Below the pieces are notes generated by a model. It saw only the letters and a list, made by a program, of their open reading frames with translations, was not told the origin of the DNA and made no database searches. Below are positions 40,594-60,476 of a DNA stretch of 64,000 bases, one piece after another. The translations under genes and the position numbers were made by a program. The DNA is from Ceratodon purpureus (lineage: Eukaryota; Streptophyta; Bryopsida; Pseudoditrichales; Ditrichaceae): the NCBI GenBank assembly GCA_014871385.1, contig CM026428.1, positions 12,650,041 to 12,714,040 of the forward strand, in the 5' to 3' direction. Numbering within the stretch: position 1 is the stretch's first letter; every line of letters starts with the position of its first letter.

Positions 40594-41528
40594 TGTCGGA
40601 ACACGGAAACGCAACTAACATCCGGATAGCGCTCAAATTGAGCGTAAACTTCCGTACTGTCACTAGGTTCCGAGTATCGTCCAGGGATTCAATAGTGTTT
40701 CACCAAGTAGTTACTTCTAATCGTTCCGAGCCTTGCCACTGCTCGGATAGTGTCTTCGGAACGTAACTCCCGAACTATCTCCTTCTCTATTCTTCTCTCA
40801 TGAGGTGTTTCGTCCACAAACCCCAACGTCTCGGATCAGTTACCGTCTCACAACTGTCCTAGAGTACTCTGGCCAGCAGGTCACACAAACGGTCCTCTCC
40901 GATCCGTGGGACTACAACGACAAACCAATCCGGATCTGGGAGAACCAGGATCCGATTATCCCTAGGCGACCCGTACCACGTTCCGACTCCCCCTCTCACT
41001 GTGCACGGAACCTCTTCAGAAGTTCAGGGAGCCCGACCAAGTAGTTCTTGATCCGCTTCGACCCTAGCGACGGCTATTCCGTATGAGGTTGATTTGGGGA
41101 CGGAACAGTGAGGCTTCACTCCTACGACAATCCGCTAAATCTTTCCGCTCAATCCCATTTCCTTTCCGGTTCGGGTCTCGTCGCAACTCCCATCACCTTC
41201 CTATCCGAGCTACAGCGGAACTCTCATATCCTTCCCGGATCATTCACACTTAGCGGGAAATCACGCACAGTACTTACAAAACACAAATACTTTACTGATA
41301 AGGATTATAGGGGGGAAAACATGCAAAACGAAGACCCGGACCGCCTCGCCTGCCTGGTTTAAGTAAGCAGGGGCTTCCACAAAAGCGGCGGCGCCGGCAG
41401 TTCAATCAAAACCCTAATCCCTAACTATCTACCTAGAATTTTACTTTACGACAAGAACGGATCCTCCGATCCGGAATCTACTCCTATAAATCCGGAAAGT
41501 TACGACAAGTGGCAGTGAGAGGAATCTA

Positions 41529-43724
41529 TCACTTCTTTGTCTTCTTGTGGCTCTCCTGCTCGCGATCCTTCGACCTGGTCACCCGCGGCTCTGATCCGCC
41601 CGCCCCTGCTGCTCGTGCCGCCTTGCGCCTAGCACTCCGTTCCGCCTTTGACTCTCTCTCCTGAGCCTCCAAGGACAACCGGGTAACGATCCGGGGTTTG
41701 GGAGAATTGGGCGATTTCGGGATCATATGTGCGGGAGGAGTTCCGGACGTCGGAGTCTGAGTTTCAGTTCCGGTGGTCCTGACCGGAGAGCTCCCATGTG
41801 TCTCTGAGTTGGACTCGGAAATTGTAATCGGTTCCTTCCTTTTCCGCAACCTCCGGAACTCACCGGCAGTGTTCGGAGGGGAACCCGCTGCTGGCGTTCC
41901 GGTGGGAGTAGGCGTCACCGTTCCGGTCTTGGCTGTGGGTGAAGGGGTCAATCCCCCCTCCTGAGTTACTCGGGTCCGTCCGGGTGGTGAAATAGGTCGT
42001 CCCCATTCCGGTCCCGCTACCTCCCCGCGGTATTTCGCAATGATCACTTCATCTCCGAGTCGTGGAAGAACATCCGGCGGCACGGTCCGAGTCACCTGTT
42101 CCGAAACCGTCCTCTCCTCGATCCGCCTCTCGGTGACTGTCGTTCCGGTCACTTGCACCTGTCCGGTGGGGATCGCGCAGCTCTGCTGGACTGTACTGGT
42201 TCCGGGTGACGCCGCCTGTGCTTGGACTTCCCGGATCGCCTCCGCAATCGTCCGATTTGTCATGGCGGCCTCTTCGACCGTCATCTGTTCTGCTGCTTGG
42301 AGGTTACTCCCTATCGGGGTTCGGAACCCAACCCCGCGAGATTCTCCTACCACGGCACGAGAGGGCGATCCGGGGAGCGGAAGACCCCGGCCAGCGCCTA
42401 CGAGACTGGGACTTCCGGTGCTCGGATTGAGCAGCTGCCGGACCTTCTTCAGGATCATGTTCATCGAGTGCTCGCATTTGGAGAGGATCTTGATGATCTT
42501 CTGCTTGTCCTCGAAATCAGCCGGCTGCACTACGTTCTCATCGAACAGCCGGGCCTTGTTGATTACCGCTCCCGAACTTCCCACCAACTTCCGAAGCTCC
42601 CCCAAAGTCTCCTCCTGCTCGGCGTGGAACTTACGGATCTCGTCACTCTTTGCCGCCAGCTCCTTCGTCAACTCCTGCAACTGAAGCTCCAGCCGCTTCT
42701 TCTCACTCCGGAGAGTTGGGGCATCCTTCAACAACTCCACTTCTCGGATCACCTCTTCCGGTAAGCACCCTCCCAGCGCTGTACAGACCCTCCGGAACAG
42801 GGTTTCGATCCGATCATAAGAAGCTTGAGCCCGATGAGTCTCCTCCCGAATCCCCCGAAACAGGTCCACCGGAAATCCCCGATCGGAACTGACCTCTCTC
42901 CGTTCCGGATCTCCCCGGGCCGTAGACGGTTCCGCATGTCGTGACGCTGGCTGCTCCGATCTCGATCTGGACTGAGCCCTAGCAGCGCCAGGGTTCGGAA
43001 CCTCCCTCGTATCGTCCTCATCTTCCGAGTCCGTTGTATCAGAGGGCTCACCTCGTGGATCGGGTTCCATTCCGGGCGGAATCTCCGAGAAGTTGAGGCA
43101 GTTCTTCGCGTGCGTATACGTCTCGTCCTCCTTATCGGTCAGCAAGTCATACGTATGGTAAAGGTGAAAGAGGTAAGGGGAGAGCGGGGTCGGCTTCTTT
43201 CCGATCGTCGGAACCATCTTCTGCACCACTTCCGCCATGAGTGCAGCCCAATTCACCGGGCGTTCTCCTGTATACGCTCCGAGGATGGTATTCCCGACCG
43301 TAATGGTAACTTGTGCCGGTTTCTGCGGATACAGGATCGGAACGAGGAAAGCTAAGACCTGCCTCTGCCTCCTATCCTTGCAGGCGTCTATCTCGTATCC
43401 ATTGTTCCTATGGATCTTCCCGTGGAACCTATCCTGCACGTACTGGTCCGTCCGGGTCGCCCAAAGGAGTCCCTTCTGCTCGAAACCGTAAGCTTCCGCC
43501 CACTGTTCCGCATTCCACAGCGTGGGCTTGCCTCGGACCGTATTATCCCACCGGTTGTCCGGACCCTCCAGGACCTCCCTCACCATCACCTCACTCTTCA
43601 GTAACCACGGCCGTGCCAACAATCCCTCACACCTCATCCGAGTGAGGTCGGTGATCAGTTCCTCCATATCCGATTCCTTCACTGGAGTTCCGGGGCTAAG
43701 GACGCAACACTGTACGCGCGCCAT
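41529..43724 (-). CDS. LTR-encoded ORF, 731 aa (3' LTR copy)
   Basis: ATG 43724 to a TGA stop at 41529, lying wholly inside the LTR. Residues ~1-230 form a compact region containing GAYTGERPVNWAALMAEVV and PLSPYLFHLYHTYDLL. ~230-290 is acidic then Arg/Ser-rich. ~310-430 is a predicted coiled coil (KKRLELQLQELTKELAAK). The remainder is Ser/Thr/Pro-rich, ending in a basic tail (ERSARRKAARAAG; KKTKK) that could be a nuclear signal. It differs from the 5' LTR copy by two residues (A/T and N/D). Neither gag, pol nor envelope. The N-terminal motif resembles the region found in the second gypsy element at 58266-60476 and, loosely, the 'putative plant transposon protein' domain. Function unknown. Confidence 0.88.
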   Translation of the reverse strand: MARVQCCVLSPGTPVKESDMEELITDLTRMRCEGLLARPWLLKSEVMVREVLEGPDNRWDNTVRGKPTLWNAEQWAEAYGFEQKGLLWATRTDQYVQDRFHGKIHRNNGYEIDACKDRRQRQVLAFLVPILYPQKPAQVTITVGNTILGAYTGERPVNWAALMAEVVQKMVPTIGKKPTPLSPYLFHLYHTYDLLTDKEDETYTHAKNCLNFSEIPPGMEPDPRGEPSDTTDSEDEDDTREVPNPGAARAQSRSRSEQPASRHAEPSTARGDPERREVSSDRGFPVDLFRGIREETHRAQASYDRIETLFRRVCTALGGCLPEEVIREVELLKDAPTLRSEKKRLELQLQELTKELAAKSDEIRKFHAEQEETLGELRKLVGSSGAVINKARLFDENVVQPADFEDKQKIIKILSKCEHSMNMILKKVRQLLNPSTGSPSLVGAGRGLPLPGSPSRAVVGESRGVGFRTPIGSNLQAAEQMTVEEAAMTNRTIAEAIREVQAQAASPGTSTVQQSCAIPTGQVQVTGTTVTERRIEERTVSEQVTRTVPPDVLPRLGDEVIIAKYRGEVAGPEWGRPISPPGRTRVTQEGGLTPSPTAKTGTVTPTPTGTPAAGSPPNTAGEFRRLRKRKEPITISESNSETHGSSPVRTTGTETQTPTSGTPPAHMIPKSPNSPKPRIVTRLSLEAQERESKAERSARRKAARAAGAGGSEPRVTRSKDREQESHKKTKK

Positions 43725-43875
43725 CTCTACTCCTCACTTCTCTCCCTCTACGATCCGACAGCAAGAAACCCGGCAATCCAACTGCCGGTGAATCGGAAAA
43801 GACAAGGACACCTCACCGCTCTTTCACTCTCTACTCCCAGTTCGCAAAAAGGAACTCCAAACCCTAACACCCTCG

Positions 43876-43883
43876 CTTATATA
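43876..43883 (-). promoter_or_regulatory. TATA box of the LTR (3' LTR copy)
   Basis: TATATAAG on the minus strand, 152 bp before the LTR-ORF start codon. The same site in the 5' LTR (53588-53595) would drive the genomic RNA, making the LTR ORF the first gene on it. Confidence 0.6.
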
Positions 43884-44248
43884 CCCCAGGCATAATAAAC
43901 GCTGTGGCGGCCCGTAATTGCAGCCGCCAACGTACCGGGGTAAACGCCTATCCGAGTCATGATGACTTCCGCGTCGCTTCGGATCCTTGACGCGGTTACA
44001 GTAACGGTCAGTACTCGGATCGTCCACCCGTTCCGTATCTTATCTTCCGAGTTTCCGGAATCCAGGTTCCGGGAACACTTCCTACGTTAACTGTTTTAAC
44101 GTTTCTGGAGTATCCGATTTGCGTTAACTGCTAATGCTGCTAGTGTCTGGCCAGTTTTTACCTAATTAACCAAAAAAATGAAAAATAAATGGAATACTTA
44201 CGCCGGCTGGGGCTCTTCCGGTTTATTCTGAGTTTCTCGGATCCCACA

Positions 44249-44263
44249 TTACCCCATTTTCAA
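44249..44263 (-). promoter_or_regulatory. polypurine tract overlapping the pol stop
   Basis: Minus-strand TTGAAAATGGGGTAA lies directly before the 3' LTR. Purine-rich AAAATGGGG fits the plus-strand primer. The final TAA is also the pol stop codon, so pol ends exactly at the LTR border. Confidence 0.65.
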
Positions 44264-47200
44264 ATGTGAGAGTCCCCGCGAACACTTTTCTTCTTCCTCC
44301 CCTTCCGGGCTTTCGCTTCCTTCGGTGTCTGTGAACTCCTCAGGGTTGTAATTCTTCACTCGGGATCCGTTCACCCGGGTTTCGAAGCTATTTCCCTGGA
44401 GGTCCGCCAGTTGTAATGATCCGTTCTCAAAGATCCGCGTAACCCGGTAAGGTCCCATCCATCTCGTATGTAACTTTCCCGAAAACTTTTGGTGCCGGTT
44501 ATCGTATAAGAGCACCAAGCCTCCTTCTATCACCTTATTGTCCTTAGGAATTCTTTTGTCGTAGGTCTCCTTACGTTTTGCCTGGACATCTACGGCCTGC
44601 TGTAGAGCGCCTCTCCTGACTTCTTCCAGATCCTGTAGTGCCACGATCCGGTACCCCGGATCCTCGACTCTCGTCCCGTGACGGGCAGCCATAACCCGTA
44701 AGGTTTCTACCTCCAACTCCACTCCGTGAACTGCGGATTGTCCAAAAACTAGGAAGAAAGGACTCTTACCCATGGTTTTCTTCTCGCTGGTATTGTAGGC
44801 GTGTACAGCTGAAGGGAGCTTCCGATCCCAATCCGTCTTATGAGCCGAGACCATCTTGTTCTGAATCTTTCCGACGATGCCATTAGCTCGTTCCGTCAGT
44901 CCATTCGCTTTCGGATTATAAGGGGTCGTCTTCCTGTGCTTGATGAGATACCTTTCCGTGATATTGATGATGACATCGTTTAGGAAATGTTTTCCTCGGT
45001 CACTCACCAGTTCTAACGGATGTCCAAATCTCATCATTATTTCTTCAAAGAGAAATGTGGCTGCGGCTGCGGCGTCATTCTTCACCGTTGCTCTTGCCTC
45101 TACCCATCTGGTCGCATAATCCGTAGCCAGGATAATGTATCTCCTCTTCCGGGCTGTGACCGGATTGATCGGTCCGATAAAGTCTATCCCCCATTTTTCA
45201 AACGGAGCCAAGGGGATAATAGGAGTGAGGGGCCAGTGGTTTCGGAACGAGGGTGCCCCGGTTCTTTGACACTGGTCGCACTGCCCTACGAATTCCTTTA
45301 CGTCTCGGGAGAGGTAAGGCCACCAATATCCGGCTGATCGGATTCGCTTGATGGTTGTCTCCGAGGCGAAATGGCCGCCCGAGGGTCCGGCGTGTAAGGC
45401 CCTCATGACCTGCCTTCGTTCGGACTCCTCGAGGCACCTCCGTAACACATCATCCGGTCCCATCCGAAAAAGTACTCCGCGGATCAGTGTGAAAGGAGCT
45501 ACTGTATTCTGAAATACCATCTTCTCCTCCCGCGTAAATCCCTCCAGGTACCTCCGTTGGGTTAAATACTGGATAATTTCCGAATAATCGGAGTTCTCCG
45601 TTCCGGAAATGTGAAATACCTCCGCCTCTTCCGGAAACTCATCCGGAAACGTGGCGGTGATGTCCGAGACTGCTTCCGGGCCTCGCATCCTTGACAGGTA
45701 GTCAGCGTTGGCATTGGCCTTACCCGGTTTTACTACTACCTCGTAGTTGAATTCCTGGAGCAGCAAGATCCATCGTGCAATACGCCCTGAGAGATCCGGT
45801 TTATTTACCAAATACTTCAGGGAGTCATGATCCGTATGGAACACGATCTTGTATCCGAGAAGGTAGTGTCGGAACTTCTTGCAGGCGTATACTACCGCCA
45901 AGGCTTCCCGTTCAGTGGTAGTATATTTCCGTTCCGCAAGGCTCATCTGCCTGCTAGCATAATAGATCGGATGCTCCTTCCGATCCTCCCCTTGCTGCCA
46001 CAGAATCGCCCCTAGGCACCACCCGGAAGCGTCGATTGTCACATGGAATTCCTTCGACCAATCCGGTGCTGATAGGATCGGAGCGGTGGTCAGGGCCTTC
46101 TTCAGTTCCTCGAACGCCTGCTGTCTCCGTTCCGTCCACAAAAACTCTTCTTCCTTCTTCAACAGTTCCGTTAATGGGGCTGCCAATTTGGCATACGCAA
46201 TAATAAACCTCCTGTAGTATCCGACGCATCCTAGGAATCCTCGGACCTCTCGGACGTTGGTGGGAGACACTAGAATAAGGATAGCTCGTACCTTATCCGA
46301 ATCGACTTCCAACCCGTTCCGACTTACGATGTGTCCGAGAAGAATTCCGGAAATCATCCCCATAAAACATTTTCCGGGGTGTAATTTCAGTCCGGTTTCC
46401 CTGCACCTCTGGAAGGTCCTTCGGAGGTACTCGAGATGTTCCTTCCACTTACTGAACACCGCGAAGTCATCGATGAAGACTTCTAGAAAATGCCTCAAGA
46501 AATCTCGGAAAATATCCACCATCAGCCTTTGGAATGTTCCGGGAGCGTTACACAGTCCGAAGGGCATTCTGTTGAAGGCGAACGTCCCCCATTCCGTGGT
46601 GAAGGTCGTCTTCAGCTGATCTTCTTCCCGGATCGACACCTGGTTGTAACCGGAAAATCCATCAAGAAAGCTGTAGCACTCCTGCCCTGCCACGTGATCG
46701 AGGATAATGTCCGTAAAAGGTAACGGAAAGTAATCCTTCTTTGTGGCCGCATTCAGTTTTCGAAAATCTTGACAAACTCGGATCTTGACTTTCCCATCCG
46801 ATCCAACCTTCTTCGGAACGACGACTATGGGCGATACCCACTCGGAATTATTTACTGGATAAATGAATCCGGCTTTCAGGAGGCTATCGATCTCTTCCTT
46901 CACCATCAGAGAATACTTCGGATTGAGCCTGTACTGGCGTTGTCTGACCGGAACTGATCCGTCAACCAAGTCTATATGATGTTGGCCGAGTTCCGGAGGT
47001 ATTCCCTTGAGGTCGGATGGTGACCAAGCGAATACGTCTAAATATTCTTTTAGTAAATCCACATACTCCTTTCTCTGCTCCTTGCTCATGCTTCGCCCTA
47101 GCAGAAATGTTTTTCCGGGGGCTACTTCCACCTTCTCATAGTCGGATGGTTTCACAACGTTCTTGACTCGTTCCGATTCCTGTTCCTCTCCCTGATCCGT

Positions 47201-48436
47201 CCATGCGCTCCACACCCGGACAGGGGTGTCCGGATCGAGACCCATGGCGGGCAGGTTTCCCTCCTCGACCTGTTGTCGGAACCATTCGGCTGAGAGTGGA
47301 ACACTCCCCTCTCCGAGAGAGCGATCCTCCAGTACCGAGAATTTCACGCGCTCCGATGATGGTTGGGGTTGCTCACTGATCGGATTATGAAATCGGAAGT
47401 CATCCTCGGTAACTTCCGAGAACTGATTCACGAAATAACTAAATACTTCGTCATCCTCCTCTTCCGGGTCGGACCAATCAGGCGTATACCCATCCGAGCC
47501 ACTGGTTTCCCCTAGATATCCATCCATCTTCCACGGAATCCGCTGATTGGTTTTTCCGAGTACGAATTCCTTGGCTCCCCAATCAACGAGGACTCGTGCC
47601 ATGTATAGCCAGGGTCTTCCCAACAACATCGGGAAGGGACGGCCCGTACTAACTCGGATTATCACGTAATTCAAGAGGTAGGTTACCTCTCCGATCGTGG
47701 TCGGAACTTGGGACAACCTTCCCACGGGTTTAACTCTAGATTGATCCGCCATTCGTAACACCTGATCGGTGGATTCGAACGAGGTGTATCCGAGTTCAAA
47801 GGCCGTATCCTCCAACATCAGGTTCACACCGGATCCTCCATCTACCGGAACTTTCGGGATAGCGCATCCTTCTATTAGCACTGTCAGTTCCGGGGCTCCG
47901 TGATCCTCAACCTGTAAGAAATTAGTAGCTACAGACGGAAGTTTCACCCCTCGGCGCCTCCGCTTTGTCCATGCCTCTCGGATTACCTTCTGGTAATTCA
48001 CATTGTCATGGAGCAACTGTCCAATCGTGACATTTGCCTTGAGGGATTTGATGTCCCCAAGAATGTCATACTCGTCCACTCTGGGATCGGAAGGAATAAC
48101 CACCGGAACGTCATCAAACCGGACCGAAGGCTTGGTGATCTTCCGGACAGGGGGATCCGTGAGCTCCTTCCGAACTTCCTCGCTGATATCTTCCGGGAGG
48201 TTCCCTCCTTCCACCCCATTTTCCGCTCTTGGACGGTCATTTTCTTCTGGTAAAGCTCTGGTTACCGTAGAGGGTTCGGATCCCGAATCCGAATCCACTC
48301 TTCTGGATCTTACCCTCCTCCTGGTCTTCCGGGGTCTCGGAAGTTCCGGTTCCTGGGCACGTTCTCTAGCGGAACTACGGGTTGATACTCTGTGCACTGG
48401 TACTTCCGCGCCCTCCTGTAGTTCCGTCACGAACCG
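44249..48436 (-). CDS. pol: pol polyprotein: protease, reverse transcriptase, RNase H, integrase (~1395 codons)
   Basis: Makes the enzymes for copying and inserting the element. Counting from GTG 48430: Arg/Lys-rich leader; retropepsin site VDGGSGVN (Asp ~197); RT with VCQDFRKLNAATKKD (~552), MPFGLCNAPGTFQ and catalytic FIDD (~652-655, instead of YVDD); RNase H with TIDASG (~798) and HTDHDSLKYL. Integrase zinc-binding His ~1013/1020 and Cys ~1051/1054, then the D,D,E triad at ~1083 (GIDFIGP), ~1144 (SDRGKHF) and ~1180 (NGLTERANG). All key residues are intact. There is no ATG at the start; the frame is the same as gag and the zinc-knuckle block and begins right after an in-frame UGA, implying readthrough. 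The stop TAA abuts the 3' LTR. The plus-strand frames across this region are shadows. Confidence 0.95.
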   Translation of the reverse strand, partial: RFVTELQEGAEVPVHRVSTRSSARERAQEPELPRPRKTRRRVRSRRVDSDSGSEPSTVTRALPEENDRPRAENGVEGGNLPEDISEEVRKELTDPPVRKITKPSVRFDDVPVVIPSDPRVDEYDILGDIKSLKANVTIGQLLHDNVNYQKVIREAWTKRRRRGVKLPSVATNFLQVEDHGAPELTVLIEGCAIPKVPVDGGSGVNLMLEDTAFELGYTSFESTDQVLRMADQSRVKPVGRLSQVPTTIGEVTYLLNYVIIRVSTGRPFPMLLGRPWLYMARVLVDWGAKEFVLGKTNQRIPWKMDGYLGETSGSDGYTPDWSDPEEEDDEVFSYFVNQFSEVTEDDFRFHNPISEQPQPSSERVKFSVLEDRSLGEGSVPLSAEWFRQQVEEGNLPAMGLDPDTPVRVWSAWTDQGEEQESERVKNVVKPSDYEKVEVAPGKTFLLGRSMSKEQRKEYVDLLKEYLDVFAWSPSDLKGIPPELGQHHIDLVDGSVPVRQRQYRLNPKYSLMVKEEIDSLLKAGFIYPVNNSEWVSPIVVVPKKVGSDGKVKIRVCQDFRKLNAATKKDYFPLPFTDIILDHVAGQECYSFLDGFSGYNQVSIREEDQLKTTFTTEWGTFAFNRMPFGLCNAPGTFQRLMVDIFRDFLRHFLEVFIDDFAVFSKWKEHLEYLRRTFQRCRETGLKLHPGKCFMGMISGILLGHIVSRNGLEVDSDKVRAILILVSPTNVREVRGFLGCVGYYRRFIIAYAKLAAPLTELLKKEEEFLWTERRQQAFEELKKALTTAPILSAPDWSKEFHVTIDASGWCLGAILWQQGEDRKEHPIYYASRQMSLAERKYTTTEREALAVVYACKKFRHYLLGYKIVFHTDHDSLKYLVNKPDLSGRIARWILLLQEFNYEVVVKPGKANANADYLSRMRGPEAVSDITATFPDEFPEEAEVFHISGTENSDYSEIIQYLTQRRYLEGFTREEKMVFQNTVAPFTLIRGVLFRMGPDDVLRRCLEESERRQVMRALHAGPSGGHFASETTIKRIRSAGYWWPYLSRDVKEFVGQCDQCQRTGAPSFRNHWPLTPIIPLAPFEKWGIDFIGPINPVTARKRRYIILATDYATRWVEARATVKNDAAAAATFLFEEIMMRFGHPLELVSDRGKHFLNDVIINITERYLIKHRKTTPYNPKANGLTERANGIVGKIQNKMVSAHKTDWDRKLPSAVHAYNTSEKKTMGKSPFFLVFGQSAVHGVELEVETLRVMAARHGTRVEDPGYRIVALQDLEEVRRGALQQAVDVQAKRKETYDKRIPKDNKVIEGGLVLLYDNRHQKFSGKLHTRWMGPYRVTRIFENGSLQLADLQGNSFETRVNGSRVKNYNPEEFTDTEGSESPEGEEEEKCSRGLSHLKMG

Positions 48437-48439
48437 TCA
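48370..48439 (-). promoter_or_regulatory. candidate stop-codon readthrough signal (UGA-CGG plus 9-bp stem)
   Basis: The zinc-knuckle frame ends AAA-TGA (48439-48437), followed by CGG. Ten bases after the stop a perfect 9-bp stem begins: CGGAACTAC (48426-48418) pairs with GTAGTTCCG (48378-48370) across a 39-nt loop. UGA-CGG followed by a distal stem is the 'type II' readthrough context of tobra-, furo- and pecluviruses. Because pol continues in the same frame without its own ATG, this is the likely route to pol. Confidence 0.62.
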
Positions 48440-48754
48440 TTTGTCCGGATTCTCTATCCCACCCGAGTGACCGTAGTTTAGCCCAGTCATCTCTCTCGGA
48501 GGGACCTCCACCTGTTTGAAAGTCGGGCGGGGTTGTGCCGGTTTGGCACACTGAGGAGCCGTATGACCGTACTCTCCGCAATTTTGGCACGGAAGGATCC
48601 GCGGTGCTCCCTGCCCCTGTCGCTCAAACGGACAGTTAGGTGCGTAATGATCCGGGCTCCCACAGTTAAAGCAGTACCCGTGGGTCGGCTTTGGGTACAT
48701 CGGCCTACCCGGAACGTTCTGTGGGATCCGGTATCCGGCGGGAGGACGGGCTAT
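48437..48754 (-). CDS. zinc-knuckle block between gag and pol, in frame (105 codons)
   Basis: In-frame continuation after the gag UAG up to UGA 48437-48439. It carries two CCHC nucleic-acid-binding knuckles, CFNCGSPDHYAPNC and CQNCGEYGHTAPQC, so gag has one knuckle and the readthrough form has three. An internal ATG at 48700 (MYPKPTHGYC) offers an alternative start. Likely made as a C-terminal extension of Gag. Confidence 0.72.
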   Translation of the reverse strand: MARPPAGYRIPQNVPGRPMYPKPTHGYCFNCGSPDHYAPNCPFERQGQGAPRILPCQNCGEYGHTAPQCAKPAQPRPTFKQVEVPPREMTGLNYGHSGGIENPDK

Positions 48755-48757
48755 CTA
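48755..48757 (-). promoter_or_regulatory. in-frame UAG between gag and the zinc-knuckle block
   Basis: Context ATC-TAG-ATA. It does not match the UAG-CAA-UUA or UAG-G classes of known leaky stops. A weak stem could form about 30 bases downstream. Suppressible stop or a later mutation. Confidence 0.4.
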
Positions 48758-50107
48758 GATCGGAGCCTTCCCCCGTCCGTAAGTGGTCTGAACCTGATAT
48801 ACAGGTTGGTACTCCTCCATCTGAAACTCTTCCTCTTCCGGATAGGCAAAGTATACTTCTTCTTCCGGATGGACGTAGTGGATACGTTTCTGGCGGGGTT
48901 CAGTACACTCCGGAGGATAGTGTCCTTGCTTTCCGCAGTTAGCACACCACACATTAGCTCTGCTGGTGGGAATCATCTTACGAGGTTTCCGATTCTCGGA
49001 AAGGTGGACGTTGAGTTCGGCAATCGATTCTCGGATCTCCTTCATCTCCTTCATGACCTTCCGAGAATCGTCATCCTCCACCTTCACCTTGATCAACTCT
49101 CGGTTCCGTCTAGGCCGGGAGTCTCTACTGGAACCCCCTCGGCGTTTCGAGGCTCCCCTGGAGTCCTCTTCCGACTGATCGGAACTGGATGAAGTGGAAT
49201 CGCTCTTACTGGTAGAGTCGGAATCTTCCGAAGAGGACTCGTGCCTCCGCCGGCGCTCTCTCTCCTTCCGGATCTTCTTACCCCGCTTCTCGGTATGCTT
49301 CAGAGACTTCCGTAGAGATTGGGCCGAGTTCTCATAGTTCTGAGCCGCTTCCACGGCTTCCTGAAGTGTGGCGGGACGGGTTTGTCGGATCTGAAACCCC
49401 ATCTCCTCTGGGAATCCGGCGACAAACCATTCCACTTGTACACTCGGAGCTATGGCCGTAGTGAGTTTCTGTATGAGCGCCTTTACCCTCTGACTGTACT
49501 TCCGTACTGACTCGGAAGATCTCATCGTCATCTGACTCAGCTTTCCGAGTGCGCGAGCTTCTCCTCCGGCCTCACGGAACGTACGTCGGAACAAGGTCAC
49601 GAAACTGGTCCAGTCGTTACGTGTACGTTCCGGAACGTCTTGGTACCACTGGAGAGCTTCTCCCTTCAGAAGACCCTGGAAAATCCTCCTCTTCGCATCC
49701 GGATCTTCCTGATTGGCCAGAGCGATGGATTCGAACTCACAGAGCCATTCGTCCACGTCTTGACTTCCGTCCCCTTTGAATCTGTTGTACTTCAGTCGGG
49801 TAGAGGGTGCCATTGGATTGTCTTCCTCGTCTTCTTCCTCTTCCTCGGTCTCCTCTTCTACTCCTGCGTCGGCTCCGACTTCGTCAGCTACGACCTCTTC
49901 TTCTTCCGGATCTGGAGCTGTACCTGCTCCGGCTGTGGAGGTTCCGGCCAACGACACCACGATTACGTCTCCTTCTCGTTCTACAGCAGTCTGGATCCGG
50001 GGAAGTAGATTCGTTCCCGGTAGATCGTGTACCAAAACTCTTCCCCTCTTCTGTAGCAACCGAGTGGATCTTCTTCCCCCTAACTCTTCCGGTTGCGCCC
50101 CAACCAT
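48755..50107 (-). CDS. gag: gag: capsid/nucleocapsid polyprotein, 450 aa
   Basis: Structural protein forming the particle and packaging the RNA. From ATG 50107 (MVGAQPEELGGRR). An acidic stretch (EEETEEEEEDEEDN) is followed by the retrotransposon gag domain (KYNRFKGDGSQDVDEWLCEF ... GEALQWYQDV ... FRRTFREAGGEARALGKLSQ), an Arg/Glu and Ser-rich linker, and a CCHC knuckle CANCGKQGHYPPEC near the end. The stop is TAG at 48757-48755, after which the same frame stays open. The frame is open upstream to 50257 but lacks ATG there. Confidence 0.92.
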   Translation of the reverse strand: MVGAQPEELGGRRSTRLLQKRGRVLVHDLPGTNLLPRIQTAVEREGDVIVVSLAGTSTAGAGTAPDPEEEEVVADEVGADAGVEEETEEEEEDEEDNPMAPSTRLKYNRFKGDGSQDVDEWLCEFESIALANQEDPDAKRRIFQGLLKGEALQWYQDVPERTRNDWTSFVTLFRRTFREAGGEARALGKLSQMTMRSSESVRKYSQRVKALIQKLTTAIAPSVQVEWFVAGFPEEMGFQIRQTRPATLQEAVEAAQNYENSAQSLRKSLKHTEKRGKKIRKERERRRRHESSSEDSDSTSKSDSTSSSSDQSEEDSRGASKRRGGSSRDSRPRRNRELIKVKVEDDDSRKVMKEMKEIRESIAELNVHLSENRKPRKMIPTSRANVWCANCGKQGHYPPECTEPRQKRIHYVHPEEEVYFAYPEEEEFQMEEYQPVYQVQTTYGRGKAPI

Positions 50108-50277
50108 GGAAGAGATTGGGAATTCTTCTTCCGATTCCTCGGAAGGCGAGATCTGCACGTAAGACTTCCGCCTACCGCATATCCACCTGAATGAAGCCTT
50201 CACGGTCTGACTCCACTTTTCTTCAAATCTGCGCTCACTTATCTTCCGAGTATCCACCTGGTTCGCAGCTTATCGAA

Positions 50278-50295
50278 TCCCCGGCAGCGGCGCCA
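50278..50295 (-). promoter_or_regulatory. primer-binding site, tRNA-Asp type
   Basis: Minus-strand TGGCGCCGCTGCCGGGGA, starting 10 bases after the 5' LTR. From general knowledge it is complementary to the 3' end of plant tRNA-Asp (GUC) with one mismatch, ahead of the usual tRNA-Met PBS in likelihood. Confidence 0.75.
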
Positions 50296-51240
50296 GATTT
50301 TTACGTGTCGGAACGCGGAAACGCAACTAACATCCGGATAGCGCTCAAATTGAGCGTAAACTTCCGTATTGTCACTAGGTTCCGAGTATCGTCCAGGGAT
50401 TCAATAGTGTTTCACCAAGTAGTTACTTCTAATCGTTCCGAGCCTTGCCACTGCTCGGATAGTGTCTTCGGAACGTAACTCCCGAACTATCTCCTTCTCT
50501 ATTCTTCTCTCATGAGGTGTTTCGTCCACAAACCCCAACGTCTCGGATCAGTTACCGTCTCACAACTGTCCTAGAGTACTCTGGCCAGCAGGTCACACAA
50601 ACGGTCCTCTCCGATCCGTGGGACTACAACGACAAACCAATCCGGATCTGGGAGAACCAGGATCCGATTATCCCTAGGCGACCCGTACCACGTTCCGACT
50701 CCCCCTCTCACTGTGCACGGAACCTCTTCAGAAGTTCAGGGAGCCCGACCAAGTAGTTCTTGATCCGCTTCGACCCTAGCGACGGCTATTCCGTATGAGG
50801 TTGATTTGGGGACGGAACAGTGAGGCTTCACTCCTACGACAATCCGCTAAATCTTTCCGCTCAATCCCATTTCCTTTCCGGTTCGGGTCTCGTCGCAACT
50901 CCCATCACCTTCCTATCCGAGCTACAGCGGAACTCTCATATCCTTCCCGGATCATTCACACTTAGCGGGAAATCACGCACAGTACTTACAAAACACAAAT
51001 ACTTTACTGATAAGGATTATAGGGGGGAAAACATGCAAAACGAAGACCCGGACCGCCTCGCCTGCCTGGTTTAAGTAAGCAGGGGCTTCCACAAAAGCGG
51101 CGGCGCCGGCAGTTCAATCAAAACCCTAATCCCTAACTATCTACCTAGAATTTTACTTTACGACAAGAACGGATCCTCCGATCCGGAATCTACTCCTATA
51201 AATCCGGAAAGTTACGACAAGTGGCAGTGAGAGGAATCTA

Positions 51241-53436
51241 TCACTTCTTTGTCTTCTTGTGGCTCTCCTGCTCGCGATCCTTCGACCTGGTCACCCGCGG
51301 CTCTGATCCGCCCGCCCCTGCTGCTCGTGCCGCCTTGCGCCTAGCACTCCGTTCCGCCTTTGACTCTCTCTCCTGAGCCTCCAAGGACAACCGGGTAACG
51401 ATCCGGGGTTTGGGAGAATTGGGCGATTTCGGGATCATATGTGCGGGAGGAGTTCCGGACGTCGGAGTCTGAGTTTCAGTTCCGGTGGTCCTGACCGGAG
51501 AGCTCCCATGTGTCTCTGAGTCGGACTCGGAAATTGTAATCGGTTCCTTCCTTTTCCGCAACCTCCGGAACTCACCGGCAGTGTTCGGAGGGGAACCCGC
51601 TGCTGGCGTTCCGGTGGGAGTAGGCGTCACCGTTCCGGTCTTGGCTGTGGGTGAAGGGGTCAATCCCCCCTCCTGAGTTACTCGGGTCCGTCCGGGTGGT
51701 GAAATAGGTCGTCCCCATTCCGGTCCCGTTACCTCCCCGCGGTATTTCGCAATGATCACTTCATCTCCGAGTCGTGGAAGAACATCCGGCGGCACGGTCC
51801 GAGTCACCTGTTCCGAAACCGTCCTCTCCTCGATCCGCCTCTCGGTGACTGTCGTTCCGGTCACTTGCACCTGTCCGGTGGGGATCGCGCAGCTCTGCTG
51901 GACTGTACTGGTTCCGGGTGACGCCGCCTGTGCTTGGACTTCCCGGATCGCCTCCGCAATCGTCCGATTTGTCATGGCGGCCTCTTCGACCGTCATCTGT
52001 TCTGCTGCTTGGAGGTTACTCCCTATCGGGGTTCGGAACCCAACCCCGCGAGATTCTCCTACCACGGCACGAGAGGGCGATCCGGGGAGCGGAAGACCCC
52101 GGCCAGCGCCTACGAGACTGGGACTTCCGGTGCTCGGATTGAGCAGCTGCCGGACCTTCTTCAGGATCATGTTCATCGAGTGCTCGCATTTGGAGAGGAT
52201 CTTGATGATCTTCTGCTTGTCCTCGAAATCAGCCGGCTGCACTACGTTCTCATCGAACAGCCGGGCCTTGTTGATTACCGCTCCCGAACTTCCCACCAAC
52301 TTCCGAAGCTCCCCCAAAGTCTCCTCCTGCTCGGCGTGGAACTTACGGATCTCGTCACTCTTTGCCGCCAGCTCCTTCGTCAACTCCTGCAACTGAAGCT
52401 CCAGCCGCTTCTTCTCACTCCGGAGAGTTGGGGCATCCTTCAACAACTCCACTTCTCGGATCACCTCTTCCGGTAAGCACCCTCCCAGCGCTGTACAGAC
52501 CCTCCGGAACAGGGTTTCGATCCGATCATAAGAAGCTTGAGCCCGATGAGTCTCCTCCCGAATCCCCCGAAACAGGTCCACCGGAAATCCCCGATCGGAA
52601 CTGACCTCTCTCCGTTCCGGATCTCCCCGGGCCGTAGACGGTTCCGCATGTCGTGACGCTGGCTGCTCCGATCTCGATCTGGACTGAGCCCTAGCAGCGC
52701 CAGGGTTCGGAACCTCCCTCGTATCGTCCTCATCTTCCGAGTCCGTTGTATCAGAGGGCTCACCTCGTGGATCGGGTTCCATTCCGGGCGGAATCTCCGA
52801 GAAGTTGAGGCAGTTCTTCGCGTGCGTATACGTCTCGTCCTCCTTATCGGTCAGCAAGTCATACGTATGGTAAAGGTGAAAGAGGTAAGGGGAGAGCGGG
52901 GTCGGCTTCTTTCCGATCGTCGGAACCATCTTCTGCACCACTTCCGCCATGAGTGCAGCCCAATTCACCGGGCGTTCTCCTGTATACGCTCCGAGGATGG
53001 TATTCCCGACCGTAATGGTAACTTGTGCCGGTTTCTGCGGATACAGGATCGGAACGAGGAAAGCTAAGACCTGCCTCTGCCTCCTATCCTTGCAGGCGTC
53101 TATCTCGTATCCATTGTTCCTATGGATCTTCCCGTGGAACCTATCCTGCACGTACTGGTCCGTCCGGGTCGCCCAAAGGAGTCCCTTCTGCTCGAAACCG
53201 TAAGCTTCCGCCCACTGTTCCGCATTCCACAGCGTGGGCTTGCCTCGGACCGTATTATCCCACCGGTTGTCCGGACCCTCCAGGACCTCCCTCACCATCA
53301 CCTCACTCTTCAGTAACCACGGCCGTGCCAACAATCCCTCACACCTCATCCGAGTGAGGTCGGTGATCAGTTCCTCCATATCCGATTCCTTCACTGGAGT
53401 TCCGGGGCTAAGGACGCAACACTGTACGCGCGCCAT
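51241..53436 (-). CDS. LTR-encoded ORF, 731 aa (5' LTR copy)
   Basis: Second, nearly identical copy of the 41529-43724 ORF, with GEVTGPEW and SESDSE where the other has A and N. In the 5' LTR it lies downstream of the TATA box and upstream of the primer site, so it is the first long ORF on the genomic RNA, ahead of gag. Same domain layout as described for the 3' copy. Confidence 0.88.
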   Translation of the reverse strand: MARVQCCVLSPGTPVKESDMEELITDLTRMRCEGLLARPWLLKSEVMVREVLEGPDNRWDNTVRGKPTLWNAEQWAEAYGFEQKGLLWATRTDQYVQDRFHGKIHRNNGYEIDACKDRRQRQVLAFLVPILYPQKPAQVTITVGNTILGAYTGERPVNWAALMAEVVQKMVPTIGKKPTPLSPYLFHLYHTYDLLTDKEDETYTHAKNCLNFSEIPPGMEPDPRGEPSDTTDSEDEDDTREVPNPGAARAQSRSRSEQPASRHAEPSTARGDPERREVSSDRGFPVDLFRGIREETHRAQASYDRIETLFRRVCTALGGCLPEEVIREVELLKDAPTLRSEKKRLELQLQELTKELAAKSDEIRKFHAEQEETLGELRKLVGSSGAVINKARLFDENVVQPADFEDKQKIIKILSKCEHSMNMILKKVRQLLNPSTGSPSLVGAGRGLPLPGSPSRAVVGESRGVGFRTPIGSNLQAAEQMTVEEAAMTNRTIAEAIREVQAQAASPGTSTVQQSCAIPTGQVQVTGTTVTERRIEERTVSEQVTRTVPPDVLPRLGDEVIIAKYRGEVTGPEWGRPISPPGRTRVTQEGGLTPSPTAKTGTVTPTPTGTPAAGSPPNTAGEFRRLRKRKEPITISESDSETHGSSPVRTTGTETQTPTSGTPPAHMIPKSPNSPKPRIVTRLSLEAQERESKAERSARRKAARAAGAGGSEPRVTRSKDREQESHKKTKK

Positions 53437-53587
53437 CTCTACTCCTCACTTCTCTCCCTCTACGATCCGACAGCAAGAAACCCGGCAATCCAACTGCCGG
53501 TGAATCGGAAAAGACAAGGACACCTCACCGCTCTTTCACTCTCTACTCCCAGTTCGCAAAAAGGAACTCCAAACCCTAACACCCTCG

Positions 53588-53595
53588 CTTATATA
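53588..53595 (-). promoter_or_regulatory. TATA box of the 5' LTR
   Basis: TATATAAG, 152 bp before ATG 53436. Presumed core promoter of the element. Confidence 0.62.
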
Positions 53596-53960
53596 CCCCA
53601 GGCATAATAAACGCTGTGGCGGCCCGTAATTGCAGCCGCCAACGTACCGGGGTAAACGCCTATCCGAGTCATGATGACTTCCGCGTCGCTTCGGATCCTT
53701 GACGCGGTTACAGTAACGGTCAGTACTCGGATCGTCCACCCGTTCCGTATCTTATCTTCCGAGTTTCCGGAATCCAGGTTCCGGGAACACTTCCTACGTT
53801 AACTGTTTTAACGTTTCTGGAGTATCCGATTTGCGTTAACTGCTAATGCTGCTAGTGTCTGGCCAGTTTTTACCTAATTAACCAAAAAAATGAAAAATAA
53901 ATGGAATACTTACGCCGGCTGGGGCTCTTCCGGTTTATTCTGAGTTTCTCGGATCCCACA

Positions 53961-55454
53961 ATATTCCTATACGGTTCATCGAAATTAATATCACAGTCTA
54001 GGATGACGTACACTTACAGGAGGGAATGAATACGTTGCTCATGCATGGATTCCATACGATGGATTCATAACTATGAGATAATGACCATTACGAATATTTC
54101 GTATACCGTAAATGGAGGATGTGGAACACTCGGCCTTGGAGGCGGATTACGAAGGCGGATTAAGAAGACCAGTATGTCTGCACCCGTTCTCTCCCACTCA
54201 TCCGAGAATCCAGACGCCAAGTACTGTCCAGAACAGAAGCCTCCGCCTGCACATGATGACAGGAAGAAATCAAGAGACTGCTAAATTCTGTGTTAATTTG
54301 AAAGCTCGTTATTGCAGATTATATCATCTCAAGAAACATAGGAACGAATTTGTACGTAACTATAGCGCTACGTATACCTCTGCAGCATCCCGAACGACTC
54401 AAATCTCTATTTCATTGCGGCTGCCTTCTGCAAACATGCACAGGTCCAGGATTCCACGGTCGCAATTCCTGTAATCCACGATCACATAAGCATTGTGCAG
54501 AATGTCAGGAACCTGGAATCATTCCAGAGAGATTGAGAATACTATGCATCAATTGGAACTGTTGAAATCAAACCAGATGGAGGGAGCAAGCACAAGAGAT
54601 CAATTAAGGCGGTAAGGTACCTTGCTGTCGTATCTTTCATCCATTTCATTCAAGGACTGTGATCCATATGCCATAACTCTCACAGGGGTGGACTTCGCAC
54701 AGACTGTCATTAGTTAAAAGAATTGGCAGCATTTTCCTACAAGAGTGCCGCCTCTGTTCTTGGTGAACCGGTTGCAGTTCTTATCTTCCACGAGAAACAG
54801 AAAGCGGTGCTCCCGAATTTCAACAATGCCGACATTTCCTACCGCATTCTGCTTCACCTGTGCAACCAGCTCAACCACCGCCCGTATGTACTTCTACTCG
54901 AGTGTGAGTTGTAACAGAATATCCGACCGTGCGTTCACAGCTTCCAAGACCTGTATGTATGATTCCAAAAACCAGATCCCTTAGAGAAGAAGCCCTTCAT
55001 TGCATTCACAAAATTAGGAAGGCGGATTACGATGTTACCCTATTATGAAGGGGATTACAAAGACCATTACAGAAATCATCACAGACATGTAATTCATTTT
55101 CGTGACTGTTGGAAAGTGGATACTCTAGGCAGTGCAATCACACCAAAACGGGTGCATGTGTGGCATCCTTTATACCTATCACTTCGCTTGTGAAGAACCG
55201 TACTGTGCCATACATCGTTAAGACCTACATTGAAATATCAGAAATCAAAACACTGAAGTTAGTCAGTGCAGGAGTTAATAGCACACGACGAACTTTGTGA
55301 ATTCCTTAGATACGTTATGTAGTATTACAGGGCTGTACCATCCGAAAACAAAAATAAGAGAAGTTCTAAGATCGCCGAGTCATTACCAATGACATACTGG
55401 ACGGTTTCATCCACTGCAAGAGTAGCGCTACCCACGAACTCATGGTCATTGCGT
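53961..55454. other. region between the retrotransposon and the transposase gene
   Basis: Begins with the ATATT duplication. Short coding-like fragments on the plus strand (for example ADISYRILLHLCNQLN near 54830) lack starts and splice sites; possibly relics of a gene or of the CACTA element body. No terminal CACTA repeat located. Confidence 0.4.
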
Positions 55455-57510: not shown

Positions 57511-57511
57511 C

Positions 57512-58265
57512 TGTTAGCCTGGGTCGAGATGGATGTCTGAGACTTCAGAGAATGGTAACCGGCCGGTCCGAGGAGTGGTAACAAGAGGAGACGAAGGTAT
57601 CGTGTGTGGGTGACCGGCGGAGGCGGTTGAGGTGTGCCTTAACAGGCTGAGCCGGTTTTAATTAGTAAAGGTCAGGCAGCGTGACCAAGGCGATATCCAA
57701 GGTCTATGGTATGCTCTGGGAACCGTGGCGGCCTTGGTAATTCTAAGTATTCTAAGGTAGATGGAGAGACAGGGAATGGTAAGGGACAGGATAGAAGATG
57801 AGCAGGTGAGGTCAAGCAAGTGATAATGGTGATCAGACAGTGGTCATACGAAGCAAGGGAAAACAAAGCATATCTGAGTTATTAAGCCGCAGGTTGCAGG
57901 AGCTGCAGAGCCTTCCGGTAGATACAAGAGAAAAGAGAATGCCAAGTAGTCTTAGAACGGTGCCCTAGAAGTCTTCTTCTCTGTGCTCAGTCTTTTACAA
58001 AACGAGCTCAAGAGCCGTGGAAATTCAAGAGAGTGACTACAACGCTATGCTATCCTTTTATACTATCTGAATACTGCTATTCCTGTGCTCCTAACTCCCT
58101 GTTTACTTCGGTGACGATCTTGGAACTCCTAGTTGGCCTCGGTGGTCAATCCTTCTAACTGCTAGTTTATCTTGGTCTGTCTTCCAGTCTGTGCCATGGT
58201 GCCCGTGGACGGGTAACATTTTGCCTTCCTTAGTAGAGAGCAATTCGTCCTCGAATTTGCAGGGG
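57512..58265 (-). repeat. putative end region of the 3' LTR, non-coding
   Basis: About 750 bp between the LTR-ORF stop and the proposed border. No coding motif. The matching region in the first element is ~935 bp. Confidence 0.4.
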
Positions 58266-60476
58266 CTAACGTCGCGTGCGTCGGCCAGCAGGTCTCCTGT
58301 CGGGGCGGGTTGCTTCACGAGGAATCTGCAGCTGACGTCTGGGAGGATCTTGGTTTCCGTAGAGGGTGGCTATGGCCGCGGCTACGCCTCGGTGAAGCAC
58401 ATTGTGCTTAGACCTGGAGGTACGGGCATGTTGATACACATCAAATACTGTTTTGCCCAAGAGCTTGTTACAAGCTGGACATTGAACGTTGGCTGCCTCG
58501 GGGTTAGCGTATCTATTGGCTAGATCAGGGTGTGCAGTAAAATAATCTTTGACTGCGGTGATGGCTCTCTCGGTATCTTCTTCAGTATCACTATCCTCGC
58601 TATCCTCACCCTCCATCTCATACTCTTCTTCCAACTTTTGTAATGCAAGTTTATGCTGTATGAAAGGTATGGGTAGAGCAGGTACCATGGGATTGGGCTG
58701 ACTTGGTGTGGCGTGGGGTGTTGGTGCCGGTGTTAGGCTGATGAGCTGCCGTGGTGATGCGTGGGGGGTGTCCTCCGTGTCGGTCGGTGCATCAGGGATG
58801 TGCACGCGATCAGATGGCTCGTTTAGCTCAGCAAAGACAGCTGCGACAGGTACATGCACCACCTGTTCTTGATGAAGGGGAATTGGAGGAGCTACCGGGT
58901 TTGTGGTGTTGTCGAGTGCTTCCTCAAATTCTGCTCCCATGGCGGCCATGGCATCCACAGACATCCCTTCCATATCCGTGTCCCAAGTTGGTTCGGATTG
59001 TTCTAGATCCAGCTCGGCCAGAGCATCATCGATGCAGGCCTCCAAAAATTCTGATGATGGGACAGCCGCGGTCGGGGGGTTATCGTATAGTAAGCGGTAG
59101 ACACGCGTGGTGATCAACCTGGCTGCGTGCTGAACCCAGTTGGCCTTGTTCGCTTCGAAATTAACTCTGTCATTCTCGGTATCCGTACGTATCTGCTGCA
59201 GCCGAGCCAATTCTTCGGTGTTCCCTGGTGCCGAGGTAAGAGCCAGAGTGCCTTGGGCGGATGATTCACTGAGGTTTTTGAATTTGGCTATTGCCTCAGC
59301 ATTTCGCTGCTCCAATTTGTGTGCCCTCTCCTCAGCCAAGGCCTTAGCTTTTGCCATGGCATCCACCTGCTCGTGGGCAGCAAGCAATTCTACCTCCATG
59401 TTCGCTACTTGGTTCCTGAAATTCCCTATGGTTTGCTGGGCTTCTGTCAGCTGCGTTCGGCTCTCCTGGCGAATTTCGTCAATGGCCTTCTGGGCTCGAG
59501 ATTGAGCGGCTTGGATGGCCTGGGCTGTCTTTCGCTTGGCACGTTCTTCTACTTCTCCTTGGTGTGCCGTGATGGAGAGTCGCTCCTGCTCCACGGTGTG
59601 TACGAAATGCAGCATCCGCTCCACACAGGTAGTGAGCTCCTTGCTCTGCTCCTGGAAGTTGCTTGCTTGCGGTCCAAACTCGGCTCTGATGTCTATTCCC
59701 TCGTGTGTCTCAGGAGCTGATACCCTCGGGCGTTTGCTTGGGCCTGGTGCGTTTGGGTCACGTGTTGCTGCTAATGCCAGCTCCCTCTGAATGTCAAGGA
59801 AGGTTCCCACCTGTGGTCCTTGGTTGTGCATTCGGTGGTACGCCAGAAACTTATTGATGTAGGCGGTCAAGAAGGGTCCTATCGGGCTGGAGTACTCGGG
59901 ATCCCTGCGGTAACCACGAAGCTGAACTCGGAACTGATCATCCAGGATCAGTCCCCAGTTAATCTTCTCTCCTTTGTCAGCGAGGAGAAGGACACTCAGA
60001 TGGTCGGGCTGTATCCGGTTACAGTCGTTTTTAAAGAAAATCTGGCTCACTACCCCGCGCATTCTAGCAAACCAAGGTTCCTTTAATGCACTGCCAAGGG
60101 CAAATACATCGTACCTGCCTTCTTCGTCGGGATGGACACCCTTGATGGCTTCGGTGACGTTGGGTCGTGGTGTCGCGCACTCCGGAGTCCACTCGGTAAT
60201 CCCCGTTCCGTCCCAACCGAAGAAAGCGTGAAGATACCGTGGCGAGTATGTGACCAGGACCCCTTCTACGTAGCCCGCTGGAAAAAGTTCCTCCTCGCTG
60301 CGCTCCCCATTTGATCGCAGGAACTCCATGCATCGAGCAATGTCGATTTTGCCGTCCAAGCGAGTCCAATATTTCACCAGGTTTGTCCGTGTTAACCATG
60401 CGCCATCGGTCTTCCTCTTCCACTCTCTCACCATCCGAGGCGTATAAATTGGTCCCATGGAAGTCTTGGTGCTCAT
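58266..60476 (-). CDS. LTR-borne ORF of the second element, 736 aa, with coiled coil and zf-XS-like finger
   Basis: From ATG 60476 (MSTKTSMGPIYTPRM) to the stop at 58266. N-terminal ~230 residues include KGEKINWGLILDD and SSPIGPFLTAYINKFL, placed and patterned like GERPVNW and PLSPYLFHLY of the 731-aa ORF. Next is a long coiled coil (RKTAQAIQAAQSRAQKAIDE; LAEERAHKLEQRNAEA), then acidic segments (EGEDSEDSDTEEDTE). A C-terminal CPAC-x11-...VYQHA...H...H cluster follows, resembling the zf-XS finger of plant SGS3/IDN2-type silencing proteins, then an Arg-rich end. The frame is also open upstream, continuous with pol. Length is near that of the first element's ORF (731). Function unknown. Confidence 0.72.
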   Translation of the reverse strand: MSTKTSMGPIYTPRMVREWKRKTDGAWLTRTNLVKYWTRLDGKIDIARCMEFLRSNGERSEEELFPAGYVEGVLVTYSPRYLHAFFGWDGTGITEWTPECATPRPNVTEAIKGVHPDEEGRYDVFALGSALKEPWFARMRGVVSQIFFKNDCNRIQPDHLSVLLLADKGEKINWGLILDDQFRVQLRGYRRDPEYSSPIGPFLTAYINKFLAYHRMHNQGPQVGTFLDIQRELALAATRDPNAPGPSKRPRVSAPETHEGIDIRAEFGPQASNFQEQSKELTTCVERMLHFVHTVEQERLSITAHQGEVEERAKRKTAQAIQAAQSRAQKAIDEIRQESRTQLTEAQQTIGNFRNQVANMEVELLAAHEQVDAMAKAKALAEERAHKLEQRNAEAIAKFKNLSESSAQGTLALTSAPGNTEELARLQQIRTDTENDRVNFEANKANWVQHAARLITTRVYRLLYDNPPTAAVPSSEFLEACIDDALAELDLEQSEPTWDTDMEGMSVDAMAAMGAEFEEALDNTTNPVAPPIPLHQEQVVHVPVAAVFAELNEPSDRVHIPDAPTDTEDTPHASPRQLISLTPAPTPHATPSQPNPMVPALPIPFIQHKLALQKLEEEYEMEGEDSEDSDTEEDTERAITAVKDYFTAHPDLANRYANPEAANVQCPACNKLLGKTVFDVYQHARTSRSKHNVLHRGVAAAIATLYGNQDPPRRQLQIPREATRPDRRPAGRRTRR

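Follow-up and report, generated by a model that had tools for sequence, protein, structure and literature searches.

A selected protein-coding gene carried within the long terminal repeats of a Ty3/gypsy retrotransposon of the moss Ceratodon purpureus

The stretch of DNA described here (the window) comprises 64,000 bp of the Ceratodon purpureus genome (C8:12650041-12714040), and the assembly searched for relatives of its genes amounts to 362.5 Mb. Two retrotransposons, element 1 and element 2, lie in the window on the minus strand (Table 1). Each long terminal repeat (LTR) of element 1 contains an intact open reading frame (ORF) of 731 codons, ORF731. In the following paragraphs we discuss the anatomy of element 1, the distribution and selection of ORF731, a second family with a homologous gene, the different case of protein X in element 2, and a short DNA motif that saturates element 1.

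The two LTRs of element 1 are identical in length (3655 bp), differ at 4 positions, possess TG..CA ends, and are flanked by a 5-bp target site duplication (TSD), AATAT. Together with the primer binding site (PBS; TGGCGCCGCTGCCGGGGA), which is presumably tRNA-Asp-like, and the polypurine tract (PPT; AAAATGGGGTAA), these features are those of an LTR retrotransposon, while the order reverse transcriptase (RT), RNase H, integrase and the gag capsid domain are those of the Ty3/gypsy group. No chromodomain was found among the domain matches of its pol, and an Rfam scan of positions 40000-64000 gave zero matches. The PPT includes the stop codon of pol; therefore U3 starts immediately after pol, and all of the sequence behind pol is LTR.

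An earlier note on this DNA, made from the sequence alone, had placed the 731-aa ORF wholly within each LTR of element 1, and the LTR boundaries and the TSD confirm this (LTR positions 525-2720). A candidate TATA box (TATATAAG) starts at LTR position 366, 159 bp ahead of the ORF731 ATG, and the interval between the two is free of ATG triplets in the window and likewise in two diverged LTRs described below (L053 and L054). By this reading ORF731 would be placed in R or U5, downstream of the predicted LTR promoter, and not in U3. In mouse mammary tumour virus (MMTV) the sag gene occupies U3, ahead of the LTR promoter, and is duplicated by its location in the LTR; the tas/bet genes of foamy viruses and nef of HIV reach into U3. 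These genes resemble ORF731 in that a protein gene is duplicated through its location in the LTR. The earlier note had offered the MMTV superantigen as an analogy of position, which does not hold, since sag and its kin are U3 genes and ORF731 begins (at 525) behind the TATA box (at 366) of the predicted promoter; the comparison is one of position and not of sequence.

Table 1. Features of the two retrotransposons in the window, and the family B ORF
Feature	Position	Strand	Description
Element 1	40594-53960	minus	complete Ty3/gypsy retrotransposon, two LTRs
TSD AATAT, 5' side of element 1	53961..53965	.	
5' LTR of element 1	50306..53960	-	3655 bp
TATATAAG in 5' LTR	53588..53595	-	TATA box, likely LTR promoter
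LTR gene (ORF731), 5' LTR copy	51241..53436	-	731 aa, intact, LTR positions 525-2720
PBS TGGCGCCGCTGCCGGGGA of element 1	50278..50295	-	ten bases past 5' LTR end
gag of element 1	48755..50257	-	Retrotrans_gag, Ty3_capsid; zinc knuckle weak
pol of element 1	44249..48430	-	RT, RNase H, integrase
PPT AAAATGGGGTAA of element 1	44249..44260	-	includes pol stop codon
3' LTR of element 1	40594..44248	-	3655 bp
TATATAAG in 3' LTR	43876..43883	-	TATA box, likely LTR promoter
LTR gene (ORF731), 3' LTR copy	41529..43724	-	731 aa, intact, LTR positions 525-2720
TSD AATAT, 3' side of element 1	40589..40593	.	
CGGA/TCCG (YCGGAW)-saturated stretch	40594..53960	.	26.7-35.3 per kb
pol of element 2	60477..63971	-	RT, RNase H, integrase
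Protein X of element 2	58266..60476	-	736 aa, internal, C-terminal part of gag-pol-X frame
PPT AAGGAAGGCAAAA of element 2	58219..58231	-	downstream of X
3' LTR of element 2	57512..58218	-	707 bp
Family B ORF	C1:18659300-18661189 (within L063, C1:18659230-18661400)		629-codon open frame, 622 aa from first ATG

A protein search of the assembly returned 2229 candidates, and all of the best 61, which were scored, are open across the 731 aa. Ranking loci by protein score biases such a sample toward intact copies and few nonsynonymous changes; three copies chosen through noncoding LTR DNA (L055-L057) were added to offset this, and ORF731 is intact in each of them. Twenty-four pairs of same-strand neighbours, spaced 9,657-9,714 bp apart, take in 47 of the 61 matches. 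DNA queries with the noncoding head and tail of the LTR gave 40 matches each with 10 LTRs in common, and in all ten the gap from head to tail is exactly 2196 bp. Three consecutive copies at steps of 9,711 bp form a three-LTR array at C1:18184118-18205732. Of the top 61 copies, 29 lie on C6, a presumed sex chromosome of 110.5 Mb that makes up 30% of the assembly; PMC8000587 describes the U and V chromosomes of C. purpureus as larger than 100 Mb each, about 30% of a 360-Mb genome.

A degenerate 24-mer for TITVGNTI has 435 matches genome-wide and the exact LTR start 357, and the reversed control of each has none. Positions were available for approximately 100 of each, the lists being complete on C1-C4, to which the following counts refer. 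The ORF motif is found at +937 to +945 behind 70 of 74 exact LTR starts. Conversely, an exact LTR start accompanies 70 of the 89 ORF motifs, and LTR pairs account for 35 of the 89. Fifteen of 22 exact PBS sites have the motif 2,713-2,741 bp upstream; among the remaining seven it occurs only on the 3' side (three sites), only 9.7 kb upstream (one site), or not within 12 kb (three sites).

The gene also persists where the rest of the element has gone. Three older loci (L052-L054), chosen from a 65-row list of older copies for having no stops, were inspected, and all three are solo LTRs carrying the gene. They are 75-85% identical to the window LTR and are flanked by TSDs (GTTAT; CTAAG; and TTGTA/TCGTA with one mismatch), and neither gag nor pol was detected in the 7-8 kb fetched around each. 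Since open-frame solo LTRs exist, one could suppose that such copies have been domesticated as host genes. We consider this very unlikely: a deletion of LTR positions 270-622 has removed both the TATA box and the ATG from L052, L054 carries a 7-nt insertion after the ATG, and most of the older copies listed contain stops.

Selection was measured with the window copy and these three solo LTRs. The NG86 ratio of nonsynonymous to synonymous substitution rates (dN/dS), a check that the earlier note had suggested, is 0.216-0.268 in all six pairs of the four sequences; by region it is 0.148-0.258 in the N-terminal part, 0.083-0.304 in the coiled coil, and 0.264-0.377 in the tail. Twenty distinct young ORF731 sequences contain 170 segregating sites, distributed 24/30/116 over the three codon positions. 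Between the paired LTRs of single elements (7 pairs) there are 2 synonymous and 6 nonsynonymous changes, and the alleles common to at least two of 13 elements comprise 22 synonymous and 3 nonsynonymous changes (Fisher p 0.0017 for 2/6 against 22/3, with loci ranked by protein score); alleles confined to one element comprise 49 and 24, respectively. Protein relatives of ORF731 from other sources, on contigs of up to 803 kb, have 33-35% identity over 52-58% of its length. ORF731 is maintained by selection at the protein level. That the frame is open merely by chance, through constraint on noncoding LTR sequence or through recent copying, might be suggested by the near-identity of the youngest copies and by noncoding LTR parts that are better conserved than the ORF; this is highly improbable in view of the dN/dS values, the 116 third-position sites, and the homologues at 33-35% identity, and we take it as refuted by these tests.

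A second family with a homologous gene was found at one of the three PBS sites that have no ORF motif, where a 601-bp slice (L061) encodes a 30% relative of ORF731 (E 4e-13). A search with a piece of L061 returned 1176 candidates, and 147 of the best 150 are stop-free over 116 residues. Ninety-eight of these 150 matches form 49 pairs, 8,806-9,698 bp apart, and 45 of the 49 pairs lie within 9,372-9,383 bp. The ORF of this family, family B, is 34% identical to ORF731 over 217 aa (E 4e-30) and 28% identical to P0003 over 467 aligned positions, and a putative TATA box (TATAAAAG) occurs 209 bp upstream of it. From the spacing of the pairs and a PBS 1.07 kb downstream, the family B gene probably lies in LTRs. 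The earlier note had argued for a selected LTR gene in both elements of the window; the claim stands for element 1, and for element 2 it fails, family B taking its place. A selected gene carried inside the LTR is thus strongly supported for element 1 and family B.

Element 2 is organized differently. Its pol is 42% identical to that of element 1 over 889 aligned residues and is continuous in frame with X, in a single open frame of 2,706 codons. The sequence ahead of gag (L051) gave a single BLAST match to window positions 54001-64000, of 707 bp and 100% identity, and this stretch, with TG..CA ends and a TSD of GATGC, is the LTR of element 2. X stops 47 bp short of the 3' LTR. The 736-aa ORF is therefore internal and fused to pol, and does not lie in an LTR as the earlier note had supposed. 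An LTR directly follows X in L021-L024 and L026-L028; L025 is truncated, and the LTR is too diverged in the other 22 loci. With single-copy fragments excluded, the 63-row list of X copies holds two same-strand pairs closer than 12 kb (8,472 and 6,464 bp), an irregular spacing that contrasts with the regular pairs of the LTR gene. X is an ordinary extra ORF in the env position; it lies in the sense orientation between pol and the 3' LTR, the place of an eORF-3'F, where ORF731 does not lie.

Matches of the X family to Transposase_32 (PF20167) are below threshold, some of them extending across most of the profile. Genome-wide there are 21 weak matches to this profile, the best at 23.6 bits against a curated cut-off of 45, and none in 14 control genomes; the two of the 21 that were checked are both X-family proteins. 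For ORF731 membership in Transposase_32 is unsupported, its alignment of 13 members giving zero matches up to E 10. The C-terminal part of X (window 58347-58664) has a conserved CxxC...H...H pattern that is zinc-finger-like, with a predicted local distance difference test (pLDDT) score mostly of 70-85 in the model, and no such stretch was seen in ORF731. Element 2 is inserted in an apparent CACTA-type transposase gene, with DUF4218 in window positions 56596-57510; the upstream part of this gene (L051 above 3139) was called by eye and is presumed to belong to it.

Are ORF731 and X related? BLASTP between the two gave no relevant match. The earlier note had described two motifs as shared, and PxxP[YF]L does occur in both; GE[RK]xxNW is found in element 1 as GERPVNW, and element 2 has GEKINW, which is one residue shorter and so falls outside that pattern. 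Comparison of the full alignments with hhalign gave a probability of 2.8%. With the N-terminal parts and more members this rose to 17%, with a score of 29.7 where 60 block shuffles reached no more than 26.4. After the addition of family B it rose to 28% (E 0.0006), with a score of 32.1 where the maximum of 100 block shuffles was 25.7, and the N-terminal profiles of the ORF731 family and X aligned along 79 columns, the two motifs falling in register. These profile comparisons are no more than suggestive of homology. AlphaFold2 models of A1 and A2 had a mean pLDDT of 40.4 and 51.7, and no ten-residue block in the N-terminal part exceeded 65. A sequence search of the Protein Data Bank returned one match for A1 (E 0.72) and 22 for A2, the best of which, apolipoprotein A-I (E 0.0035, in the coiled-coil stretch), was taken as compositional; coiled-coil Pfam matches were dismissed likewise. 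No relatives of ORF731 or A2 were found in viral contigs, nor of A1 in prokaryotic genome contigs.

The likeness bears on a different origin for ORF731, namely that it is a displaced env-position (eORF-3'F) protein, located in ancestral elements between pol and the 3' LTR in the manner of X, pulled into the LTR when a new PPT arose at the pol stop codon, and serving in particle assembly, RNA handling or nuclear import and not in anti-silencing. X does occupy the env position in element 2, the PPT of element 1 coincides with the pol stop codon, and the two N-terminal profiles align with the score of 32.1 given above. The hhalign probability is nevertheless only 28%, falling to 17% without family B and 2.8% with full alignments, and the dispersed motif described next, which element 2 does not have, is left unaccounted for. 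We regard a displaced eORF as possible but unlikely; it is in part a story of origin, and as such is compatible with the explanation that we favour below.

A further characteristic of element 1 is the density of a short motif. CGGA/TCCG occurs at 26.7-35.3 per kb in the LTR head, ORF731, the LTR tail, gag and pol alike, compared with 3.9 per kb in window positions 1-38000 and 4.2-6.5 in element 2. Element 1 contains 306 such sites where a first-order Markov model predicts 128, making this the strongest 4-mer, and CGGA also ranks first among 4-mers in each of ORF731, gag and pol when these are compared with synonymous-codon shuffles. The preferred form is YCGGAW (z scores against the shuffles of 7.1 in ORF731, 7.4 in gag, and 11.7 in pol), which is enriched on both strands and present in all three frames of ORF731 and pol; the whole window has 331 where 118 are expected. 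No excess was seen in X (z -0.2) or in the pol of element 2 (z -1.2). Family specificity was judged by comparison with window positions 1-38000, element 2 and five X-family loci. CCWWGG was considered as a counterpart motif in element 2 and set aside (z 3.6-3.7, with no standout k-mer).

The motif has been retained as the LTRs diverged. Between LTR subfamilies the retention of CGGA is 0.72 (924/1288) against 0.515 for all 4-mers, third of 134 4-mers, over six non-independent pairs taken in both directions. L053, L054 and L052 contain 60, 59 and 57 copies of YCGGAW, where 31.5, 35.6 and 21.6 would be expected to survive if substitutions fell on the window LTR at random. Alleles found in a single element destroy 18 CGGA sites (15.2 expected) and create 5 (4.1 expected); because new alleles destroy and create the motif at random rates, mutation bias is unlikely. 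The family B ORF has 31.6 CGGA/TCCG per kb, with CCGG, the first, and CGGA as its top 4-mers and CCGGA as its top 5-mer, and it has 26 copies of YCGGAW, whereas 300 synonymous shuffles average 11.2 and never exceed 18. The motif excess therefore accompanies the LTR gene in both families, and element 2 does not show it.

As an alternative, the excess of YCGGAW may reflect a different reader, such as a host activator, Gag or integrase, or may have arisen as a by-product of mutation or composition; the LTR gene would then be an unrelated accessory. The similar density in coding and noncoding parts is consistent with this, as is the ratio of observed to expected CpG, which is 0.98-1.16 in the parts of element 1 and 0.6 in a host stretch. 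The first-order Markov and synonymous-codon controls, however, cover CpG and codon use; new alleles confined to one element show no preference for the motif, and element 2 lacks it within the same window. Such a reader or by-product is in our view conceivable, though doubtful.

Our own leaning is that ORF731 is a regulatory gene autonomous to the LTR, whose product would perhaps counteract silencing in a sequence-specific manner, as VANC does. The LTR is a gene unit consisting of a likely TATA promoter, a short leader, an ORF of about 620-740 codons, and about 0.9-1.1 kb to the LTR end, and reverse transcription places a copy of the gene at both ends of the element. The promoter of each LTR, whether paired or solo, may give rise to a short mRNA for a single protein. 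This protein, with a predicted conserved N-terminal region, coiled coil, Pro/Ser/Thr-rich tail and basic end, may be nuclear and act in trans on DNA of the family, where it would read the dispersed YCGGAW and keep the copies expressed. A more specific version, that in a moss Ty3/gypsy clade the LTR-gene protein recognises the element-wide YCGGAW and prevents silencing, intact solo LTRs remaining sources of the protein, is rather less probable and we put it forward tentatively.

VANC proteins are anti-silencing proteins of the Arabidopsis VANDAL transposons (PMC5735166, PMC10398659), and PMC5735166 describes the VANC21 motif (YAGTATTAY) as mainly noncoding and spread by tandem repeats. Element 1 resembles these transposons in combining an element-encoded accessory protein, whose role here is presumptive, with DNA dense in a short family-specific motif. 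VANDALs are DNA transposons and element 1 is a retrotransposon, and the likeness proposed here concerns the manner of working.

Several observations weigh against the favoured reading. Seven of the 22 PBS sites on C1-C4 do not have the exact ORF motif where it would be expected, and at two of them (C2:362599 and C3:452734) no similarity to the LTR gene was found in 601-bp slices, so that these are possibly relatives without it. Older copies are mostly broken, with stops in 53 of 65 and none in 12. ORF731 is 79 and 82% identical to its counterparts in L053 and L054, and the flanking noncoding LTR is 87-94% identical; the corresponding dS values, 0.66 and 0.51, are far above the divergence of the noncoding LTR. 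Family B has one ATG between the TATA box and the ORF, 22 bp past TATAAAAG. The excess of YCGGAW was identified post hoc, and the deficit of shared alleles that destroy CGGA is marginal (4, with 8.0 expected; P 0.06). The mainly noncoding, tandem repeats of the VANC motif have no parallel in element 1, where YCGGAW is scattered over gag, pol and the LTR gene as well as the noncoding LTR. The protein and the motif are linked only by their co-occurrence in two families, and the motif might instead be read by integrase, Gag or a host factor; the start of the short mRNA, its poly(A) end and the nuclear location of the protein are likewise presumptive.

Among known plant elements, the eORF and aORF genes of Athila, Ogre, Retand and SIRE lie in the internal region, mostly between pol and the 3' LTR (PMC7264820, PMC6317226). 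They resemble ORF731 as accessory genes of plant gypsy elements whose products lack a clear known domain; X fits this known kind, and ORF731 differs from it in lying wholly within the LTR. The group A centromeric retrotransposons (CRM) have a polyprotein frame that extends into the 3' LTR (PMC3059260) and so share coding sequence in a plant LTR with element 1, but there it is the end of a polyprotein in the 3' LTR, whereas element 1 has a separate and complete gene, with its own likely promoter, in both LTRs, and this gene is found in solo LTRs as well. A Boea clone has predicted ORFs with LTR-annotated BLASTP matches (PMC4031123). In the literature searched, with most subscription papers outside its scope, no report was found of a plant LTR that contains a complete gene under selection.

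It is customary to regard LTRs as noncoding DNA and solo LTRs as dead remnants. With a conserved gene residing in the LTRs of at least two families, even a solo LTR can remain a gene, and masking LTRs, or classifying elements by their internal genes alone, would miss or misname it. With a motif that is maintained both in noncoding DNA and, by the choice among synonymous codons, in coding sequence, the self-marking of an element for a trans-acting factor becomes directly testable.

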